This document shows, piece by piece, positions 15,191-22,820 of a DNA stretch of 46,119 nucleotides. A program made the position numbers and the translations under genes. The DNA lies in contig JAIBCD010000022.1 in NCBI GenBank assembly GCA_019694335.1, positions 1 through 46,119 on the forward strand, read 5' to 3'. The stretch's first letter is position 1. The number at the start of each line of letters is the position of its first letter. Below the pieces are notes generated by a model. That model made no database searches. It was not told the DNA's origin and saw nothing but the letters and a program-made list of their open reading frames with translations. Origin of the DNA: Rhodospirillaceae bacterium (GTDB lineage Bacteria; Pseudomonadota; Alphaproteobacteria; Rhodospirillales; Rhodospirillaceae).

Positions 15191-16150
15191 ATGACTCACG
15201 CGCAAGCGCTCTGGTACACCGGCCCCGGCCAGGTGGCGATCCGCGGTGAAGAGCTAGAGGAGGGAGAGGTGCGTGTACGCGCGCTTTATTCCGGCATCAG
15301 CCGCGGCACCGAGCGCCTGGTCCTGCAAGGCCGCGTGCCTTTGAGCGAGCATCAGCGCATGCGCTGCCCGCGCCAGGACGGCGAGTTTCCGTTCCCGGTG
15401 AAATACGGCTACGCCCTGGTGGGCGAAGTCGAACACGGCCCCAAGAACCTGGAAGGCAAAAGCGTCTTCCTCCTGCATCCCCACCAGACCCGCGCTTCGG
15501 CCGCGCTCGCGGAAGTGCACCGTCTGCCCAAAGGACTGCCGGCGCGGCGCGCGGGACTTACCGCCAATATGGAAACCGCGCTCAACATCATGTGGGATGC
15601 CGGCGTCGCGGCCGGCGATCGGGTGTCGATTGTCGGCGGCGGCGTGCTCGGCCTGCTGATCGCGGGGCTGTGCGCCCAGATTCCCGGCGCCGAAACCACC
15701 GTCGTGGACCCGGACCCCGCGCGCGAGACTCCCGCCCGGACGTTGGGCGCGGCCTTTGCCCGGCCCGCGGATGCGCCCCAGGACCAGGACGTCGTCATCC
15801 ACACCAGCGCGGCCGAATCCGGTTTGACCCTGGCGCTGAACAGCGCCGGGATTGAAGCAAGAGTCGTTGAAGCAAGCTGGTATGGCGACAAGGCTCCGGC
15901 GATTCCGCTCGGCGGCGCGTTCCACGCCCGGCGGCTGCAGTTGATCTCCTCGCAAGTGGGGATGGTTGCGCCGGGCCATCGCCCGCGCTGGACCTATGCC
16001 CGGCGCCTCCAGACAGCCATGACCCTGCTCCTGGATCCGGTGTTCGACATCCTGATCACCGGCGAGCTTGCTTTTGCCGACGCGCCAGGGCAAATGCCGG
16101 GGATCATCGCGGACAACACCGGCCTCATGACCGTGATCCGCTATCCCTGA
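15191..16150 (+). CDS. MDR-superfamily dehydrogenase of the pterin-like cluster
   Basis: A 319-residue member of the medium-chain dehydrogenase/reductase superfamily. The GroES-like N-terminal part is at 1-120, and the Rossmann NAD(P)-binding loop IVGGGVLGLLIAGL is at about 147-160. The classical GHE zinc-site motif is absent, and I see no cysteine tetrad for a structural zinc, so it is probably a zinc-free oxidoreductase despite resembling zinc-type alcohol dehydrogenases. It starts 11 bases after the VWA gene and is followed, with a 12-base gap, by a pterin-synthase-like gene and a glycosyltransferase. That order suggests oxidation or reduction of a side chain on the cluster's product. Substrate unknown. 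Confidence 0.78.
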   Translation: MTHAQALWYTGPGQVAIRGEELEEGEVRVRALYSGISRGTERLVLQGRVPLSEHQRMRCPRQDGEFPFPVKYGYALVGEVEHGPKNLEGKSVFLLHPHQTRASAALAEVHRLPKGLPARRAGLTANMETALNIMWDAGVAAGDRVSIVGGGVLGLLIAGLCAQIPGAETTVVDPDPARETPARTLGAAFARPADAPQDQDVVIHTSAAESGLTLALNSAGIEARVVEASWYGDKAPAIPLGGAFHARRLQLISSQVGMVAPGHRPRWTYARRLQTAMTLLLDPVFDILITGELAFADAPGQMPGIIADNTGLMTVIRYP

Positions 16151-16162
16151 ATTGGAGCAGCA

Positions 16163-16570
16163 ATGTACACCGTTGAAGTCCGCGACCATGTGATGATCGC
16201 CCACAGCTTGAAGGGCGAAGTGTTCGGCCCCGCGCAAAAACTCCATGGCGCCACTTATGTCGCCGACATCTGCTTCATGCGTCCGGAACTGGACGAGAAC
16301 GATATCGTGGTGGACATCGGCCTGGCCTCGGACGTGGTGAAGGAAGTGCTGGGCGGGCTCAATTTCAGCAATCTCGACGATCACCCGGACTTCAAGGGCA
16401 AGCGTTCCACCACCGAGGCCGTCGCCCGCTGGATCTTCGAGAAGATCCAGGCCGCCGCCCGCGCCGGACGCCTGGGCCCTTCGGCCAAGGGCCTCACCCG
16501 CCTCAAGGTAATGCTGCACGAATCCCACGCCGCTCGCGCATCCTATGAGTCGGAGCTCCGACTTGCCTGA
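16163..16570 (+). CDS. Divergent 6-pyruvoyltetrahydropterin synthase-like protein
   Basis: A 135-residue single T-fold domain of the 6-pyruvoyl/6-carboxy-tetrahydropterin synthase family. The N-terminal metal motif is MIAHSLKGEVFG with His14, followed by LHGATY with His28. The family's third zinc ligand, normally the second His of HGH, is Ala30, and the usual catalytic Cys just before it is missing. The later motifs remain: LDDHPDF, the substrate-binding STTEAVARWI and the Glu pair in HESHAARASYE. It may bind a pterin and act by a different mechanism. It overlaps the glycosyltransferase gene by 26 bases. Not a plain queuosine QueD: no QueC, QueE or QueF nearby. Confidence 0.8.
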   Translation: MYTVEVRDHVMIAHSLKGEVFGPAQKLHGATYVADICFMRPELDENDIVVDIGLASDVVKEVLGGLNFSNLDDHPDFKGKRSTTEAVARWIFEKIQAAARAGRLGPSAKGLTRLKVMLHESHAARASYESELRLA

Positions 16571-17597
16571 GGTCTGGTTCGCGGTCCCGGGTGATCCCGA
16601 GACCCGCACCGGCGGCTATATCTATGCCAAGCATCTCGCGCGGGCATTGCGCACCCACGGCTGGACCGTGCATCCGGTGAGGCTGCCGGACGGATTTCCG
16701 CGCGCCTCCTTGGATGATCTCGCCGAAACCCGCCGCCTCCTCGCGGCTCTGCCCGCGCGCGCATGCACGCTGATCGATGGACTTGCCTTCGGCGCAATGC
16801 CCGAAGGCCTGCTGGCCGGCCTGAACCTCGATATCGTTGCCTTGGTGCACCATCCGTTGGCGTTGGAGACCGGTCTTGCGCCGGACCAAGCGGCGGATTT
16901 CGCGCGCATTGAACGAAGCGCACTGCGGTTCGCGCGCGCGGTGATCGTCACCAGTCCCCATACCGCTGACGTGCTGGCCGCCGACTACGGCGTCGCGCGC
17001 GATCGTATCGCGGTGGCCGTGCCCGGCACCGATCGGCGTTCGCGTGCCAAAGGTACACAGCCGCCGTCCCTGCTCACCGTCGCCACGGTCACACCGCGCA
17101 AGGGACATGACGTACTGGTCGCGGCGCTGGCGCGGATCAAAGACCTCGCCTGGACCAGCTGTCTCGCAGGCAGCTTGACCCGGGCACCGGCTTGCGTCGC
17201 GGATCTTCGCGCGCGGATCGCGGCCAACGGCATCGCGGACCGGATCACGCTCGCGGGCGAAGTCGCGGATGACGCCCTGGCTCACCTATATCGCGACGCC
17301 GATGTATTCGTGCTGCCGTCGCGCTATGAGGGCTACGGCATGGTGTTCGCCGACGCGCTCGCGGCCGGGTTGCCCATCGTTGCCTGCGCCGCCGGCGCGG
17401 TGACCGGTACCGTACCCGGGGACGCCGGGGTGTTTGTGCCGGTGGACGATGTCGCCGCGCTCGCCGATGCCTTGCGTGCACTGCTCATCGATCCGAATCG
17501 GCGGCGCGGGCTGGCGGACGCGGCGTGGGCCGCCGGCCAGCAGCTTCCAACCTGGGATCGCGGCGCCGAGATCGCCGCGAAGACGTTAGCCGCGTAG
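16545..17597 (+). CDS. GT4-type glycosyltransferase
   Basis: A 350-residue GT-B fold glycosyltransferase of the GT4 type. The N-terminal acceptor domain opens with VWFAVPGDPETRTGGYIYAK, and the C-terminal nucleotide-sugar domain holds TVATVTPRKGHDVLV, RDADVFVLPSRYEGYG and LAAGLPIVACAAG. The family's EX7E motif is EX7D here (EGYGMVFAD). It probably moves a sugar from a nucleotide-diphosphate donor to a cytoplasmic acceptor. Its start lies inside the end of the pterin-synthase-like gene, and its 3' end overlaps the oppositely transcribed RibD-like gene by 12 bases. The context suggests glycosylation of a pterin, pyrimidine or lipid product, but the acceptor is not known. Confidence 0.88.
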   Translation: MSRSSDLPEVWFAVPGDPETRTGGYIYAKHLARALRTHGWTVHPVRLPDGFPRASLDDLAETRRLLAALPARACTLIDGLAFGAMPEGLLAGLNLDIVALVHHPLALETGLAPDQAADFARIERSALRFARAVIVTSPHTADVLAADYGVARDRIAVAVPGTDRRSRAKGTQPPSLLTVATVTPRKGHDVLVAALARIKDLAWTSCLAGSLTRAPACVADLRARIAANGIADRITLAGEVADDALAHLYRDADVFVLPSRYEGYGMVFADALAAGLPIVACAAGAVTGTVPGDAGVFVPVDDVAALADALRALLIDPNRRRGLADAAWAAGQQLPTWDRGAEIAAKTLAA

Positions 17598-18332
17598 ATC
17601 GCAGTCGGTGAGGATGTCCCCTCCGGGAAGCACGTAGGTCGCGGTCGCCGGGCGGAGCGCATCCGCCAGCGTCGCGATCTCCGGCAGGGCGAGCCCGGGC
17701 TTGCCCGAGCCGATGATCATCGGCCCGGTCATGATATGCAGCCGGTCGAGCGCGCCGGCTTCAAGGAATTTCGACAACGTCATGGCGCCGCCTTCCACCA
17801 GAAGGCGCGCGAGCCCGGCGGCGCGCAAGACGGCGACCATCGCCGCGGGCGCGAAATCCGCAAGCTCGATCCGCTCGATGCCTGGGGGCGTTTTTGCCGC
17901 CGCGCGCGTTAAGACAATGCGGCGCGCGCCGTCATCGGCGAAACACCTTGCGCCGGCGGGCGCGCGACCGTTGGGATCGACGATCACGCGCGCCGGCTGC
18001 GCGCCCTTCACACGGCGCACTGTCAGCTGCGGGTCGTCGGCCATGACCGTGCCCACGCCCACAACGACAGCATCCACGAGCGCGCGCAGCCGGTGGAGAT
18101 GAACCAGCGCGGCCGGGCCGTTGATATAGTGCGAATGGCCCGTAGCGGTGGCAATGCGGCCGTCCAGGGATTGCCCCATTTGGCCGGTCACGAAGGCGCG
18201 CCCCATCAGGGGGCCATAGATTCGCCACAGGATATGCGTTGATAGAGCCGCGGACAGCCTTTCACCGCGGGAAGCCGCCAGAACCTCCAGCCATTGCGGA
18301 GTCTCCGCTTCCCAGGCCAGAATGGCGTCCAT
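17586..18332 (-). CDS. RibD-type reductase domain protein without deaminase domain
   Basis: A 248-residue protein with only the RibD C-terminal (dihydrofolate-reductase-like) domain: QSLDGRIA (54-61), VGVGTVMADDPQLTVR (91-106), IVDPNGRAP and LLVEGGAMT (177-185). The zinc deaminase half of a bifunctional RibD is absent; instead there is a 45-residue helical N-terminus. The ATG at 18332 is used; the upstream open frame is a shadow of the ribA-like gene. It should reduce a ribosylamino-pyrimidine or a pterin with NADPH. It is divergent from the GTP cyclohydrolase II gene, with about 30 bases between starts, and convergent with the glycosyltransferase. Confidence 0.85.
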   Translation of the reverse strand: MDAILAWEAETPQWLEVLAASRGERLSAALSTHILWRIYGPLMGRAFVTGQMGQSLDGRIATATGHSHYINGPAALVHLHRLRALVDAVVVGVGTVMADDPQLTVRRVKGAQPARVIVDPNGRAPAGARCFADDGARRIVLTRAAAKTPPGIERIELADFAPAAMVAVLRAAGLARLLVEGGAMTLSKFLEAGALDRLHIMTGPMIIGSGKPGLALPEIATLADALRPATATYVLPGGDILTDCDLRG

Positions 18333-18363
18333 TACACTTTGCTTTCGCGGTTTCGAGGATTCT

Positions 18364-19500
18364 GTGCCGAACGAGAACGTCAACATTGGGACGCCCGCCG
18401 GGGACTTGGCAAGGTGGTTCGGCGAGCCCGGACGTCTCGCGGTGCTGAGGGCCGTCGCCGAATTGCGCAGTTGCCGGCCGGTGAGACTCAGCCATCCCTC
18501 ACCCGATCCCGCCAACACCGTTTTCGCCGTCGCCGCCGCCGAGATGCTGGGCGGCGCGCGCATCAAGGCCTGGCACGCCGCCAGCATGGGCGCCCTGCGC
18601 CTGATCCTGCCAGGCCCGCGCCTCCTCCACCTCGGCATCGATGCGGCGGGGCCGTCGGCCGTGGCTTTCGACGATCTTTCCGCCGCCGAGATCGACGCGT
18701 TGATCATGGCGGCCGAACCTGCCTTGCCGCCGCTGGTCCACCGCCCGGCCGAAGCCGTGGAGGTCGCGGCGCTCGAGCTCATGAAGCGCGCCTATCTGCT
18801 GCCAGCGGCGGTGATGCTGCCGGTCAGCGAGGATGACGCCGCCATGGTCGAAGTGGATACCGCCGCCATCGCCGATTTCCATGACCAGTCGGCTCGCGAC
18901 CTGACCATCGCCGCACGCACGCGCGTGCCGTTGGCGGAAGCGGTAAACAGCGAGTTCGTGGTGTTCCGCGGCGGCGACGGCCTCCGCGAACAGCTCGCCA
19001 TCATCGTCGGCAAGCCCGATCCCTCCGCGCCGGTGCTGACCCGCCTGCACTCCGCATGTTTGACCGGCGATCTGTTCGCCAGTCTCAAATGCGATTGCGG
19101 CGACCAGCTGCGCGGCGCGGTGCGCGAGATCGCCAAGGCCGGCGGCGGCGTGCTGCTCTATCTCGACCAGGAAGGCCGCGGCATCGGCCTGGTGAACAAA
19201 ATGCGCGCCTACGGCTTGCAGGAGCTAGGCCACGACACCGTCGATGCCGACGCTGCGCTCGGTTACGGCCCCGACGAGCGGCGCTATGCGGTCGCGGGCG
19301 CCATGCTGGCGCTGCTCGGATTCCGTCGCATCACCCTGATGACCAACAATCCGGGGAAAATCGAGGCGCTGGCGGATTTCGGCGTCAATGTTATGGGCCA
19401 TCAGCGCCTGATCGGCGCGGTGAACCCCCACAACCACGATTACCTGCAAACCAAGGCCCGCCGCGCCGGGCACTATCTCGACGAGATCACGGAGCTCTGA
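18364..19500 (+). CDS. ribA: GTP cyclohydrolase II with degenerate N-terminal domain
   Basis: A 378-residue protein. The C-terminal 200 residues are a complete GTP cyclohydrolase II: zinc cysteines at about 232, 243 and 245 (ACLTGDLFASLKCDC), the catalytic loop DQEGRGIGL (268-276) and MTNNPGKIEAL. The reaction opens GTP to the diaminopyrimidine that starts riboflavin synthesis, releasing formate and pyrophosphate. The N-terminal 170 residues occupy the place of a DHBP synthase but lack its acidic metal motifs, as in some alphaproteobacterial RibA proteins. The GTG at 18364 is preferred, with CGAGGA upstream; an ATG at 18322 would overlap the RibD-like start. It probably feeds the neighbouring reductase. 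May be a second, pathway-specific ribA copy. Confidence 0.88.
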   Translation: MPNENVNIGTPAGDLARWFGEPGRLAVLRAVAELRSCRPVRLSHPSPDPANTVFAVAAAEMLGGARIKAWHAASMGALRLILPGPRLLHLGIDAAGPSAVAFDDLSAAEIDALIMAAEPALPPLVHRPAEAVEVAALELMKRAYLLPAAVMLPVSEDDAAMVEVDTAAIADFHDQSARDLTIAARTRVPLAEAVNSEFVVFRGGDGLREQLAIIVGKPDPSAPVLTRLHSACLTGDLFASLKCDCGDQLRGAVREIAKAGGGVLLYLDQEGRGIGLVNKMRAYGLQELGHDTVDADAALGYGPDERRYAVAGAMLALLGFRRITLMTNNPGKIEALADFGVNVMGHQRLIGAVNPHNHDYLQTKARRAGHYLDEITEL

Positions 19501-19573
19501 CGCATTTTCCGGCGAAGGGGGCACCGGTTCGCCGAAGAAAACGCGACAAAATTTCAACCAGCGGCATGATCGC

Positions 19574-20335
19574 TTATGCCGCCGGGCGCCACGCCGCGGC
19601 CGCGAGTTCGTGCAGGGTGGCGAGCGCCGCGCGCGCGGCGTGGTTCACCATCGCCTCGCCCAAGGCTACGTCGGCGAGATCGGCGCGGCCGATCCAACCG
19701 CCGTCCACGAGATCGCTGGTCATCCAACCCCAATTCACGGGGCCGCTCGGAAAAAGGCTGGGCCCGGGCGGCTTGGGTTCGGCGGCGGCGCCCTTGCCCA
19801 CCAGCGCCGGCGCGAGATGCAGCATCACCGACGTCTCGATCCACCCGCCGTGAACATCCTCTTTCACGCCGGCAGGGGTCTTCATGCCGTCAGGCAAACC
19901 GTAGTCCAGCCAATGGGCGCAGGCCGCGAGCATGCCGAACCGCGTCCGCAGCTTCAGCACGGCGATGGCCGCAGCGGCGATATTGCCGCCGTGACCATTG
20001 AACAGAAGAATGCGCTTCACACCGGCGCGGGCGAGGCCCTCACCGATGCTTTCGATCTGGGCGATGAGCATTTCCGGCTCGATCGACACTGTCCCGGCGC
20101 GGTCGGCGTGTTCGGCCGAGGCGCCGACCCACAGCGGCGGCAGGCGCAGGATCGGCTCCGCCGACCGATCCAGGTCACGCACGCAATCCAGGATGCCTTC
20201 CGCGATCAGCGTGTCGGTCGCGAGCGGCAGATGCGGTCCGTGGGTTTCCAGGGCACCCAACGGCAAAACCGCGACGGCCCTAGGATGCGCGACCTGGACC
20301 GGGGGCTGACCGAGGTGTTGGAAGGCGTGGAACAT
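19574..20335 (-). CDS. Creatininase-family amidohydrolase
   Basis: A 253-residue creatininase-family protein with all expected metal ligands: Glu30, His32 and Asp41 in LGALETHGPHLPLATDT, His115 in FNGHGGN, His162 and Glu167 in DVHGGWIETS. Members include creatininase, the mycofactocin protein MftE and the archaeal formylaminopyrimidine deformylase ArfB of riboflavin synthesis. Beside GTP cyclohydrolase and a RibD-type reductase, the ArfB-like activity is the most attractive guess, because it would remove a formyl or amide group from a GTP-derived pyrimidine. The ATG at 20335 follows the sulfatase-like gene stop by one base; an earlier in-frame ATG at 20401 lies inside that gene and is not used. 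Confidence 0.85.
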   Translation of the reverse strand: MFHAFQHLGQPPVQVAHPRAVAVLPLGALETHGPHLPLATDTLIAEGILDCVRDLDRSAEPILRLPPLWVGASAEHADRAGTVSIEPEMLIAQIESIGEGLARAGVKRILLFNGHGGNIAAAAIAVLKLRTRFGMLAACAHWLDYGLPDGMKTPAGVKEDVHGGWIETSVMLHLAPALVGKGAAAEPKPPGPSLFPSGPVNWGWMTSDLVDGGWIGRADLADVALGEAMVNHAARAALATLHELAAAAWRPAA

Positions 20336-20336
20336 G

Positions 20337-21908
20337 CTATTCGGGCGTGAAGGCGGAGAGGATGCGGCCGCGCAGGTCTTGCATCGGTGCCACGGGACCA
20401 TCGGCGGCGGGCGTCATGCCTTCTGCCCAGCCGCCACTCAAGGCCCGCACCAGTTTTTCGTCGCGCGCGATCACATGCACCGGCACTTGGCGGCCCGCGT
20501 TCTCGCCGGCGATGAAGCCCATCGGTTGATGATCGCCCATGACGATGACCAAGGTGTTGTCCCGCCCGTAGGTGGTAATGAAGGAGGTCACGGTCCGCAA
20601 CGTGTACTCCACCGACCGTGCGTAAGCCAGTTCGACGCCGCCCGGCACGCTCCAGACCTCACTGGCGGGTTCCTTGGTGCGGGCGGTCGCGAAAATCGCG
20701 CCATCGCCGACCTCGTTCCAGGGCACCAGTTTGGGCAATGGCGCCCAGGGGATATGGCTGGAGATCAACGCGATCTCGGCCATCAGGGGCGGGCGCTCCG
20801 GTCTCGCGAATTCGCGTTCGTTAAAGGCGTGCAGGACATATTGGTCGGAGGTGGTCATGTAGCCGAACGGCGGTCCGGCATAGCCCAACTCCGGCGCGGT
20901 GTAGATGGCGTCGAAGCCGAAGAAGCGTCCTTCCGGCCACGGTCCGGTGATTTCGGCCATCACGCCCGCGGTGCGCCAGCCGGCGCGTTTGAAATCGGTG
21001 ACCATGGTTGACCGCTTGCTGCGCACCAATGCCTGATAGCGGGCATCGCTGGTGACCGGCAGCCCCGACATCACCGTGCCATGCGCCAGCCAGCTTTGCC
21101 CGCCGAAGGTGGCGGAGGTAAGCCACGCGCTGCGCGCCTGGAAGCCCGCATCCGCCAGGGCGCGCGTGGACTCCGCCAGCGCCGGGCGAACGATCCCGTC
21201 ATAAGGCGCGCGGTCCAGCGCGCTGCGGCCATAGGCTTCGATGAAGATCACCAGGACATCGACGCCGCGAAGGGAGGCGAGCGTCTGTGGCCGGGACGGC
21301 GGCTCCGGCTGCTGCAAGGTGACCTTGAACCGCCGCAAGTCGCGCAGATCCCCGACCAAGGTCTCCGCCTGTTCCCGCATGAGGCCGGTCGTGGCGGCAT
21401 TGGCCACGGGAACCGGCGGATCGCCGACCGTCACGAGGGTCAAAGCGAGTGTTAGCACCGTGAGCGCGCCCGCCACCGTCCCGCGCGAAGCGCGCGCGGA
21501 CGCGCTTAACGTTGTCAGCGCCCACCAGGTGGATGCGGCGATGGCGCCGGTCAGAATCGCCGCGCCGGCCGCGGCCGCAGCCGCAACAAGCACGCTGTTC
21601 ATGGCGAGGGTGCCCAGCGCCACGGGGATCAGCGGCACATCGGTGAGCGGCGCGAACGGGCGGTCAAACCCTTGCAAGGTGCCGATATTCGCGATCTTGA
21701 CCACCACGGCCACCGTCACCACCACGGCGAGGAAGGGCTTCAACCAGCGCCAGACGCGCGGCGGCAGAATTCCGGCCAGCACAAGCAGCACCACCGGCTC
21801 CCACGGCACGTGCGCGAGGCCCAAAAGATCGAATGCCGCGGGTGTGCCCGGCAGCGCGAACAACACATAAAGAATCGCGATAGCAGTGATGACGCGCTTC
21901 CCACTCAT
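20337..21908 (-). CDS. Membrane sulfatase/alkaline-phosphatase-superfamily protein
   Basis: A 523-residue protein. Residues 1-170 hold about four to five membrane segments, and residues 215-515 a periplasmic alkaline-phosphatase-superfamily domain as in LTA synthases and phosphoethanolamine transferases: VLVIFIEAYGRSAL near the N-terminus of the domain, TSATFGGQSWLAHGT, ISSHIPWAPLP and VIVMGDHQPMGF. The nucleophile is expected among the Ser/Thr near those motifs but I cannot fix it. Such proteins move a phospho-headgroup between lipid and acceptor or hydrolyse one. It overlaps the CDP-alcohol phosphotransferase gene by ATGA and abuts the creatininase gene, so the three form one leftward operon. 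Confidence 0.82.
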   Translation of the reverse strand: MSGKRVITAIAILYVLFALPGTPAAFDLLGLAHVPWEPVVLLVLAGILPPRVWRWLKPFLAVVVTVAVVVKIANIGTLQGFDRPFAPLTDVPLIPVALGTLAMNSVLVAAAAAAGAAILTGAIAASTWWALTTLSASARASRGTVAGALTVLTLALTLVTVGDPPVPVANAATTGLMREQAETLVGDLRDLRRFKVTLQQPEPPSRPQTLASLRGVDVLVIFIEAYGRSALDRAPYDGIVRPALAESTRALADAGFQARSAWLTSATFGGQSWLAHGTVMSGLPVTSDARYQALVRSKRSTMVTDFKRAGWRTAGVMAEITGPWPEGRFFGFDAIYTAPELGYAGPPFGYMTTSDQYVLHAFNEREFARPERPPLMAEIALISSHIPWAPLPKLVPWNEVGDGAIFATARTKEPASEVWSVPGGVELAYARSVEYTLRTVTSFITTYGRDNTLVIVMGDHQPMGFIAGENAGRQVPVHVIARDEKLVRALSGGWAEGMTPAADGPVAPMQDLRGRILSAFTPE

Positions 21909-22648
21909 GATCCGCGCACCTGCGCCAGGATGTCGGCGCCGAAGGAATAGACCAGAAGCGCGAGCGCGAGCGCGGCGGCGATGGCGCTGACTGGCGGCTG
22001 GATCGCTGGCGCCAATACGGCACAGAGAACCGTCCCCTGGATCGCCGCGATGATTTTACGACGCCATGCGGGCGCGAGCGGACGGGCAAGCGCGGGCATG
22101 ACCATCGCGGCCAGCACATAGAGGTAGCGGAGCAGGCCGCTCACGATCACCCAGACGCCGGCTTTCGCCAGCATGAAGGCGATCACCGACAGCACCAGAA
22201 TCATGAAGGCGTCGGTCTCCATGTCGAAGCGCGCCCCAAACACCGAGGCCGCGCCGGACCGGCGGGCGGCGATGCCGTCCAATCCATCGAGCATGAGCGC
22301 GACGGCGGCGCAGCCGGAAAACGTCCAGGCGGCCGCATCGCCGCCGGCATTGCCGCGCCCCAGCTCGATCGCGAAGGCCGCCAGCAGGGCCGCCAGCGCG
22401 AGGCGCACCATGGTCAGGGCGTTGGCGAGGCCAAAGTGCTTATGCGGATGGAACAGCGCGGCCTTGCGCGGGATGAAGCAGCCGGCCAGCACAAACACCC
22501 CGCCGGCCTCATACGCGAAAGTGGAGCTGAACCCGAACGGCTTTTCCAGCCACGCGGCGGCAAAGGTCAGGAAAAGCGCCACCGCGCCCGCGGAGAAAAA
22601 CGCCGAAAGCGCCACACGACGCGCGGAGTCGCTCAAGGCCCGCGCCAT
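21905..22648 (-). CDS. CDP-alcohol phosphotransferase
   Basis: A 247-residue polytopic membrane protein with the complete family signature D-G-x2-A-R-x8-G-x3-D-x3-D at about residues 124-146 (DGIAAR, then G, D and D of GARFDMETD). Enzymes of this family join a CDP-alcohol to a second alcohol, such as glycerol phosphate, inositol phosphate or serine, in the membrane. Around six membrane helices are visible. The start at 22648 is chosen because the longer frame to 22726 begins with unlikely arginine/proline-rich sequence, but this is uncertain. It leads the operon with the sulfatase-like and creatininase genes and is divergent from the outer-membrane factor gene. It could make the lipid carrier or headgroup of the cluster's product. 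Confidence 0.85.
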   Translation of the reverse strand: MARALSDSARRVALSAFFSAGAVALFLTFAAAWLEKPFGFSSTFAYEAGGVFVLAGCFIPRKAALFHPHKHFGLANALTMVRLALAALLAAFAIELGRGNAGGDAAAWTFSGCAAVALMLDGLDGIAARRSGAASVFGARFDMETDAFMILVLSVIAFMLAKAGVWVIVSGLLRYLYVLAAMVMPALARPLAPAWRRKIIAAIQGTVLCAVLAPAIQPPVSAIAAALALALLVYSFGADILAQVRGS

Positions 22649-22820
22649 CGCGCCGTTACCCAAGGTTGCAGGCGGCGCGGCGGGAAACGGCCCGGCGGGC
22701 GGATTCCTGCGGCGAACGGCGGCCAATAAATTGCGCGAAGCTGCACAAAATGATGCAATTTCCGAGATGAATCACGGGGTGCGGAGTTTTACACTCCGCC
22801 AGCTCCATACGGGAATAGAA

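Follow-up and report, generated by a model that had tools for sequence, protein, structure and literature searches.

A patchily distributed gene cluster that may convert GTP into a methylated, probably glycosylated pyrimidine or pterin

Why do enzymes typical of the first steps of riboflavin synthesis lie packed among a PTPS-fold protein, a glycosyltransferase and lipid-headgroup enzymes? The question is raised by the window analysed here, a stretch of 46,119 nucleotides from Rhodospirillaceae bacterium (assembly GCA_019694335.1, contig JAIBCD010000022.1), in which eight such genes lie side by side from position 15,191 onwards. The original prediction held that the eight families act together to make a glycosylated pterin or pyrimidine, perhaps attached to a membrane lipid. 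Much of it stands, as the families form a conserved unit, the riboflavin genes of the genome are separate and the families co-occur even where their genes are far apart; the lipid part would be an optional step, its CDP-alcohol phosphotransferase being present in only 23 of 45 PTPS-positive Alphaproteobacteria genomes. At a probability of roughly 60%, we favour a dedicated, patchily distributed and sometimes plasmid-borne pathway leading from GTP, via the first riboflavin intermediates, to a pyrimidine or pterin that is methylated and probably glycosylated; a lipid module would be added in some species.

All eight tightly packed genes were recovered on both strands at the positions originally given, and their family assignments hold:

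15191-16150, + strand: MDR dehydrogenase without the classical zinc-site cysteine motif, found in 125 of 126 related loci and almost always adjoining the PTPS-like gene
16163-16570, + strand: PTPS-fold (T-fold) protein with the subfamily motif EVRDHxMIAHS...FGPAQxxHGAT
16545-17597, + strand: GT4 glycosyltransferase, matching GT4-type Pfam families, found in 118 of 126 loci
17586-18332, - strand: RibD_C reductase of the cluster type, with an ATG at 18332 and 324 bits to the cluster profile
18322-19500, + strand: GTP cyclohydrolase II (GCHII; RibA), with an alternative GTG start at 18364 that is possibly the true start
19574-20401, - strand: creatininase-family amidohydrolase of a cluster-specific group, a candidate formamidase
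20337-21908, - strand: sulfatase-like enzyme of the alkaline-phosphatase superfamily with N-terminal helices, probably LtaS/LtaP/phosphoethanolamine-transferase-like
21905-22648 or 21905-22726, - strand: CDP-alcohol phosphotransferase, starting at ATG 22648 or TTG 22726

The dehydrogenase, PTPS-like and GT4 genes form a forward block, the RibD_C (-) and RibA (+) genes stand head to head in the middle, and the CDP-alcohol phosphotransferase, sulfatase-like and creatininase genes form a reverse block. Overlaps amount to 26 bases between the PTPS-like and GT4 genes, 12 between GT4 and RibD_C, 65 between creatininase and sulfatase-like, and 4 between sulfatase-like and CDP-alcohol phosphotransferase genes. 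Pfam gathering cut-offs are exceeded for PTPS, GT4, RibD_C, GCHII, creatininase and CDP-OH-P-transf, whereas the sulfatase match falls slightly short (24.5 vs 25 bits). The MDR protein scores well under the cut-off against ADH_zinc_N (18 vs 31.8 bits) and far under it against its best NCBIfam match, BchC (41.7 vs 291 bits). It has an SRGTE motif at the position where classical alcohol dehydrogenases carry the zinc-site cysteine.

If the eight families act together, their neighbourhood should be conserved in relatives. Using the PTPS-like gene as a query, we assembled 126 loci from other genomes and plasmids: the best 80 of 139 relatives in a scan of genome contigs, six plasmid regions and 40 further genome regions (35 of the 44 other matches in the class and 5 of 11 matches in other classes of the phylum). 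Some of these loci are near-identical, hence not independent, and contig ends cut some of them. Besides the PTPS-like gene, present in all 126 as the query, the dehydrogenase was found in 125, GT4 in 118, a methyltransferase in 112, RibD_C in 89, RibA in 63, CDP-alcohol phosphotransferase in 53, cytochrome b561 in 46, the sulfatase-like gene in 41, creatininase in 35 and a flippase-like gene in 21. Thus, the core partners are the MDR dehydrogenase, the T-fold PTPS-like protein, usually GT4, the S-adenosylmethionine (SAM)-dependent methyltransferase and RibD_C, with GCHII and creatininase often added; the CDP-alcohol phosphotransferase, an LtaS-like transferase and, in other genomes, a flippase-like protein constitute an optional membrane set. 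All eight window families occur together in 18 loci: L180, which belongs to another class, and 17 close relatives in the series L020 to L040. The block recurs in alpha-, beta- and gammaproteobacteria and in Streptomyces, and partially in Haloarcula. Among six additional plasmid regions, a locus of Streptomyces globisporus has 9 of the 11 families, missing only the cytochrome b561 and sulfatase-like genes, and a Haloarcula plasmid locus carries creatininase, CDP-alcohol phosphotransferase, dehydrogenase, PTPS-like, GT4 and methyltransferase-like genes, with weak scores for PTPS (60 bits), CDP-alcohol phosphotransferase (75 bits) and methyltransferase (93 bits). The genes flanking the block behave differently. 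MoxR, DUF58 and VWA genes upstream and a TolC-like gene downstream were found in 3 to 4 of 81 loci, and an M28 gene in one of 81, the window included in each case; the MoxR-DUF58-VWA and TolC-like flanks are outside the gene block. Because the families recur together in the 126 loci while the flanks do not, and co-occur at a distance too, a chance neighbourhood is ruled out, and the eight families are supported as a conserved functional unit.

Two further observations concern these loci. Close relatives of the window (L019, L020, L038 and other RH-23may17 records) carry the public label Candidatus Marinimicrobia, probably a mislabelling, while other near relatives are labelled Rhodospirillaceae. 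The recurrent cytochrome b561 gene beside the cluster (e.g. L103, 13011-13544) is a hint at a redox role.

Co-occurrence was further assessed across whole genomes, in a sample of 385 Alphaproteobacteria genomes, apparently the same draw for each profile. The PTPS-like gene (threshold 1e-25; weakest match 1.4e-42) is present in 45 of them, about one in nine sampled species. Cluster-type RibD_C was found in 40 genomes, always with at least 234 bits, whereas the remaining matches listed reach at most 173 bits, a gap that makes it a separate class by score. The two genes occur together in 39 genomes, and the lone genome with RibD_C and no PTPS-like gene (G275, 74% complete) carries RibD_C and the CDP-alcohol gene on one contig. 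The CDP-alcohol phosphotransferase subfamily was detected in 24 genomes, 23 of them PTPS-positive and the 24th again G275. Importantly, the partners need not be neighbours: RibD_C lies about 950 kb from the PTPS-like gene on one contig in G525 and 62 kb in G177, the CDP-alcohol gene 187 kb away in G322 and 78 kb in G380, and G331 and G164 have the CDP-alcohol gene on a different contig from the PTPS-like gene, which lies well inside its own. Since co-occurrence extends to genes that are far apart, the linkage rests on more than adjacency. In an independent plasmid collection, all 13 records with cluster RibD_C lie among the 23 with a PTPS-like gene.

Joint action of the set is indicated most strongly by a ninth partner, missed in the original prediction. 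The class I SAM-dependent methyltransferase follows GT4 directly in most of its 112 loci, and no methyltransferase of the cluster type was found in the window. The window genome (G000; 4.0 Mb, 96.8% complete) carries it on contig C19 (7090-7905), where it encodes a protein of 271 amino acids scoring 297 bits to the cluster profile; the family was aligned from a sample of 32 rows. When the methyltransferase profile was run over 150 genomes of the order, 14 were matched (G023 in two pieces), and the same 14 carry strong PTPS-like matches; a fifteenth PTPS match, with E = 8e-5, is a distant PTPS relative. The methyltransferase is thus about as constant as the PTPS-like gene. On C19 (L201, 5086-7905) it adjoins genes which we read, from their translations, as mtnB, mtnC and mtnD of methionine salvage, and mtnA was found in five of 133 loci, query included (L064, L065, L072, L108 and L162). 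These neighbours might indicate a SAM enzyme that releases methylthioadenosine, a lead only, since three of the five loci are from Rhodobacterales.

What might the PTPS-like protein do in such a set? Its subfamily has 38 invariant columns in an alignment of 30 rows. In PTPS, a Thr-Thr-Glu motif and a C-terminal Glu are the pterin-anchoring residues, Cys and Asp-His belong to the catalytic triad, and three histidines are zinc ligands. The anchoring positions T83, T84, E85 and E120 are invariant in the subfamily, whereas the HGH of PTPS/QueD chains has become HGA, with loss of one zinc ligand, the Asp-His of PLDHKNLD is replaced by Asn plus Tyr or Phe, and no Cys occurs in the FGPAQ motif. The protein appears to have lost the PTPS triad and to retain an incomplete zinc site together with the pterin contacts. 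The nearest solved chain, PDB 3d7j of Streptomyces coelicolor, labelled 'Uncharacterized protein SCO6650', is a single protein of the same subfamily, aligned over positions 1-131 of the 132 in our profile with 190.7 bits; the accessible literature assigns it to no pathway. The paper on its structure reportedly describes the same pattern, with zinc and triad lost and pterin-binding residues kept.

The enzymes of riboflavin type were analysed for what they could supply. The window RibD gene encodes the reductase domain alone, and no pyrimidine deaminase (the N-terminal domain of RibD) was found in it by Pfam; the cluster-type RibD_C was aligned from a sample of 39 rows. The C-terminal half of RibA is a normal GCHII, with a TM-score of 0.94 to E. 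coli GCHII 2bz0 (by target length) and the zinc cysteines C246, C257 and C259 invariant in 32 rows. Its N-terminal half has the RibB fold and lacks the RibB motif ([ED]NE[GA]D), which is absent from 63 of the 64 RibA proteins at the loci and present in one. At the position of E. coli Tyr105, a Met is said to make GCHII release the formyl intermediate, Tyr giving the deformylated product. The window GCHII has Tyr here, not the Met that marks formyl-product enzymes, and Tyr is found in 62 of the 64 proteins compared, the others being a partial, misaligned sequence and Streptomyces L104, a short GCHII of 219 amino acids that has Met and adjoins creatininase. SCO6655, encoded near SCO6650, is reportedly also a GCHII yielding the formylated product. 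Three different types of GCHII occur at the loci: the window type, one resembling the second RibA of the window genome on contig C77 (two Burkholderiaceae loci), and the short Streptomyces type. Judging from a tree of the window and C77-like types, from which the short Streptomyces protein was left out, up to three separate recruitments of GCHII to the locus seem to have taken place, an argument for use of the GCHII product by the pathway.

The creatininase-family protein matches Pfam Creatininase with 201 bits, and its E-x-H-G, D and HGG motifs are conserved in 36 rows. Its best NCBIfam match, MftE, is below the cut-off (106 bits vs 172 needed), and the ArfB model gives 23.5 bits against a cut-off of 180. 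The 4 Mb genome encodes ten creatininase-family genes. In a tree that included seven of the nine paralogues and omitted L034, a fragment, the locus creatininases of Proteobacteria, Streptomyces and Haloarcula lie on one side of a branch separating them from the paralogues, although long branches, including that of Haloarcula, make the joins uncertain. The window protein is a candidate formamidase of a cluster-specific group.

Several observations weigh against a single dedicated pathway of this composition. Six of the 45 PTPS-positive genomes have no cluster-type RibD_C; four of them have the CDP-alcohol gene, and G212 (68% complete) and G244 (93%) have neither. The Fisher p values for co-occurrence (7e-46 for PTPS-like/RibD_C and 1.6e-23 for PTPS-like/CDP-alcohol) count related genomes as independent and thus overstate independence, and in G184 and G352 the PTPS-like gene is near a contig end, so that the apparent separation there is possibly a contig break. 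Among the plasmids, 10 of the 23 PTPS-like records have no RibD_C match, and in two Streptomyces loci (L184 and L185) out of 12 plasmid regions the PTPS-like gene is found without the other families. A strict co-occurrence rule is also at odds with L186 (Arthrobacter), which has only dehydrogenase, PTPS-like and GT4 genes, and with L189 (Palleronia), which has no membrane genes. With RibA near in 63 and creatininase in 35 of the 126 loci, housekeeping enzymes may carry out these two steps, or the steps may be dispensable. Moreover, the Tyr of the window GCHII implies a deformylated product and makes a formamidase unnecessary; beside the 62 Tyr-type enzymes creatininase is present in 31 cases and absent in 31. 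Given this even split and a single Met case, the Tyr105 position was dropped as a rule for the presence of creatininase. As for the surroundings of L184 and L185, their PTPS-like genes lie near genes for a cupin, an MBL-fold protein, a BTAD regulator and a sigma factor.

Is the lipid module part of the pathway? In the window CDP-alcohol phosphotransferase, the motif D-x2-D-G-x2-A-R-x8-G-x3-D-x3-D is intact; across 39 rows D124, D127, G128, R132, G141, D145 and D149 never vary and A131 hardly does, an alignment from which L148 and L152 were dropped as misaligned (12 and 15% identity). The model of the sulfatase-like protein (pLDDT 91.9) has helices up to residue 199, followed by the catalytic fold, in which E224, D459, H460 and H478 are invariant in 25 rows. 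Its best PDB matches are LtaP and LtaS (LtaP, E = 1.4e-11), with phosphoethanolamine transferases and sulfatases further down; the fold is common to LtaS/LtaP and phosphoethanolamine transferases, and identity across the top 15 rows is 11 to 17%. Based on the model, the protein is probably located in the membrane and LtaS/LtaP/phosphoethanolamine-transferase-like, a candidate for the transfer of a lipid head group. Since the CDP-alcohol gene is present in only 23 of the 45 PTPS-positive genomes, the lipid step is optional.

This optional character is what makes a soluble product conceivable: a glycosylated, methylated pterin or pyrimidine could be the end point, with the CDP-alcohol, LtaS-like and flippase-like genes serving a merely linked envelope function. 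The sulfatase-like gene is found in 41 of 126 loci, and three genomes of 1.4 to 1.6 Mb (G309, G406 and G483; 94 to 96% complete) retain genes for the dehydrogenase, PTPS-like protein, GT4, methyltransferase, RibD_C, RibA and creatininase (L144, L145 and L146), with no CDP-alcohol match genome-wide. Retention of this soluble set in such small genomes suggests that its function is of value even to streamlined cells. There are also known soluble pterin glycosides, e.g. from Chlorobium (PMC5683033, in which terms for glycosyltransferase families gave no match). However, the CDP-alcohol subfamily hardly occurs outside genomes with the pathway (23 of 24 have it), even when its gene is located elsewhere, which would be unexpected for an unrelated envelope gene, and a weak relative (75 bits) is found at the Haloarcula locus. 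We consider a purely soluble product unlikely, about one chance in a few.

An auxiliary branch of riboflavin synthesis, e.g. for flavin secretion, with the remaining genes incidental, is improbable. Three of the enzymes, GCHII, RibD_C and the creatininase-family protein, are of riboflavin type, and a precedent exists in alphaproteobacteria, where the creatininase-family enzyme BrbF deformylates a GTP-derived intermediate and serves riboflavin synthesis (PMC9478397). Yet the constant partners at the loci are the MDR, PTPS-like and methyltransferase proteins rather than RibA (63 of 126). No deaminase, DHBP synthase (RibB), RibE or RibH family was found by Pfam among the eight window proteins; the RibB-fold half of RibA has lost the RibB motif in 63 of 64 proteins, and by its scores the cluster-type RibD_C stands apart from other RibD_C matches. 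A second set of riboflavin genes, a point on which the original prediction turned, does exist in the genome, which has three GCHII-family, two RibD_C and two PTPS-family genes in all. Contig C77 encodes a RibA with zinc cysteines and without the RibB motif, and contig C197 a RibD candidate of 374 codons (identified by its reductase half) and, after it, a RibB in which the ENEGD motif is intact and no GCHII cysteine motif occurs. The window and C77 RibA proteins share 42.6% identity and fall into different clades. These separate genes make the riboflavin-type genes of the window extra ones, and the C77 gene rules out the cluster RibA as the sole GCHII of the genome. As the C77 RibA also lacks the RibB motif, loss of the motif was dropped as a mark of the pathway.

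Least probable is a glycolipid or polysaccharide locus in which the GTP-derived enzymes would supply a modifying group and not a pterin, a view consistent with the GT4, flippase-like (21 of 126 loci), LtaS-like (41 of 126) and FkbM-type methyltransferase (27 matches in 133 loci, query included) genes and opposed by six Rhodobacterales loci in which no GT4 was found beside the retained MDR, PTPS-like, methyltransferase and RibD_C genes (L050, a short contig, L057, L060, L064, L072 and L108), and by the recurrent families inspected, among which no polymerase or nucleotide-sugar genes were recognised, no search having been aimed at them. In rhizobial loci (L073, L074, L076, L078, L092 near 6123, and others) the FkbM-type gene lies between the sulfatase-like and CDP-alcohol genes. 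PfkB-type kinases adjoin the short Rhodobacterales version of the cluster (L064, L072, L108 and L189, the kinase of L189 being only distantly alike).

Read from the family chemistry of the observed partner set, all reactions of the favoured pathway would run as follows. GCHII would open GTP to 2,5-diamino-6-(phosphoribosylamino)pyrimidinone, with formate removed by the creatininase where GCHII stops at the formyl compound. RibD_C would reduce the ribosyl to a ribityl chain, presumably with no deamination, because no deaminase is encoded. The T-fold protein could bind the 2-amino-4-oxopyrimidine via its kept Thr-Thr-Glu and Glu contacts and, having lost the PTPS triad, may perform a different reaction, while the MDR dehydrogenase would act on the side chain. 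GT4 would add a sugar, its acceptor being, as we infer, the pterin or pyrimidine, and methylation would fall to the methyltransferase. Where the membrane set is present, a CDP-activated lipid might be coupled to the product, or to its phosphate, by the CDP-alcohol phosphotransferase, with the flippase-like and LtaS-like proteins handling the result at the outer face of the membrane. A tentative extension, which we regard as possible and less probable than the pathway itself, is that bacteria and haloarchaea share a new class of membrane lipid, with a head group of glycosylated, methylated ribityl-pyrimidine or pterin made from GTP and a T-fold protein re-purposed for a new pyrimidine reaction.

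Members of the cluster are annotated in public records as queuosine, riboflavin, creatininase and sulfatase enzymes. The identity of the product would correct these annotations and explain the 'uncharacterized' 3d7j and its odd active site; the product could be a cofactor, a redox compound or a lipid of a new type. Beyond Alphaproteobacteria, the set is also met with in further proteobacterial classes, in actinomycetes and in at least one haloarchaeon, and it occurs even in genomes of 1.4 to 1.6 Mb. Among open-licence PMC papers, a partial literature, we found no description of the gene set or of lipid-linked pterins. In a word search of a 2026 review of bacterial pterins (PMC13259868), the terms 'lipid', 'glycosyl', 'riboflavin', '6-pyruvoyl' and 'gene cluster' do not occur, and 'cyanopterin' appears in the references only. 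Individual members do surface elsewhere: PMC2853524 lists SCO6655 as a GCHII of riboflavin metabolism, and in PMC3610822 a table on differentiation shows elevated values for SCO6652, there called a hypothetical protein.

How does the cluster compare with known systems? One counterpart is found in catalytic T-fold enzymes. QueD and PTPS-I, -II and -III (COG0720) share Pfam PTPS and the Thr-Thr-Glu and Glu contacts with the window protein; in place of their Cys-xxx-HGH type motif, described in the available text of PMC5041015, it has FGPAQxxHGA, the triad being lost. The same text describes the function of 'PTPS-V' as unclear. The BrbF and ArfB formamidases (PMC9478397, in part) share the creatininase family with the window protein and act on the first GTP-derived intermediate. 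The window creatininase differs from ArfB by its low model score and its cluster-specific group; BrbF is compared by description, not by sequence. Toxoflavin/azapteridine pathways likewise cluster GCHII and RibD-like genes with a methyltransferase gene, but are not known to include PTPS-like, GT4, MDR or CDP-alcohol phosphotransferase genes. Synthesis of the known pterin glycosides begins with GTP cyclohydrolase I and a catalytic PTPS, whereas the window cluster has GCHII and RibD_C in their place. The feature shared with tetrahydrobiopterin glucoside, cyanopterin and limipterin is a glycosyltransferase that acts on the pterin (PMC5683033, in part). None of the enzyme families in the cluster is new, and the pathway is a branch of one already described; a lipid with a pterin or pyrimidine as its head group, if made, would be of a new kind.

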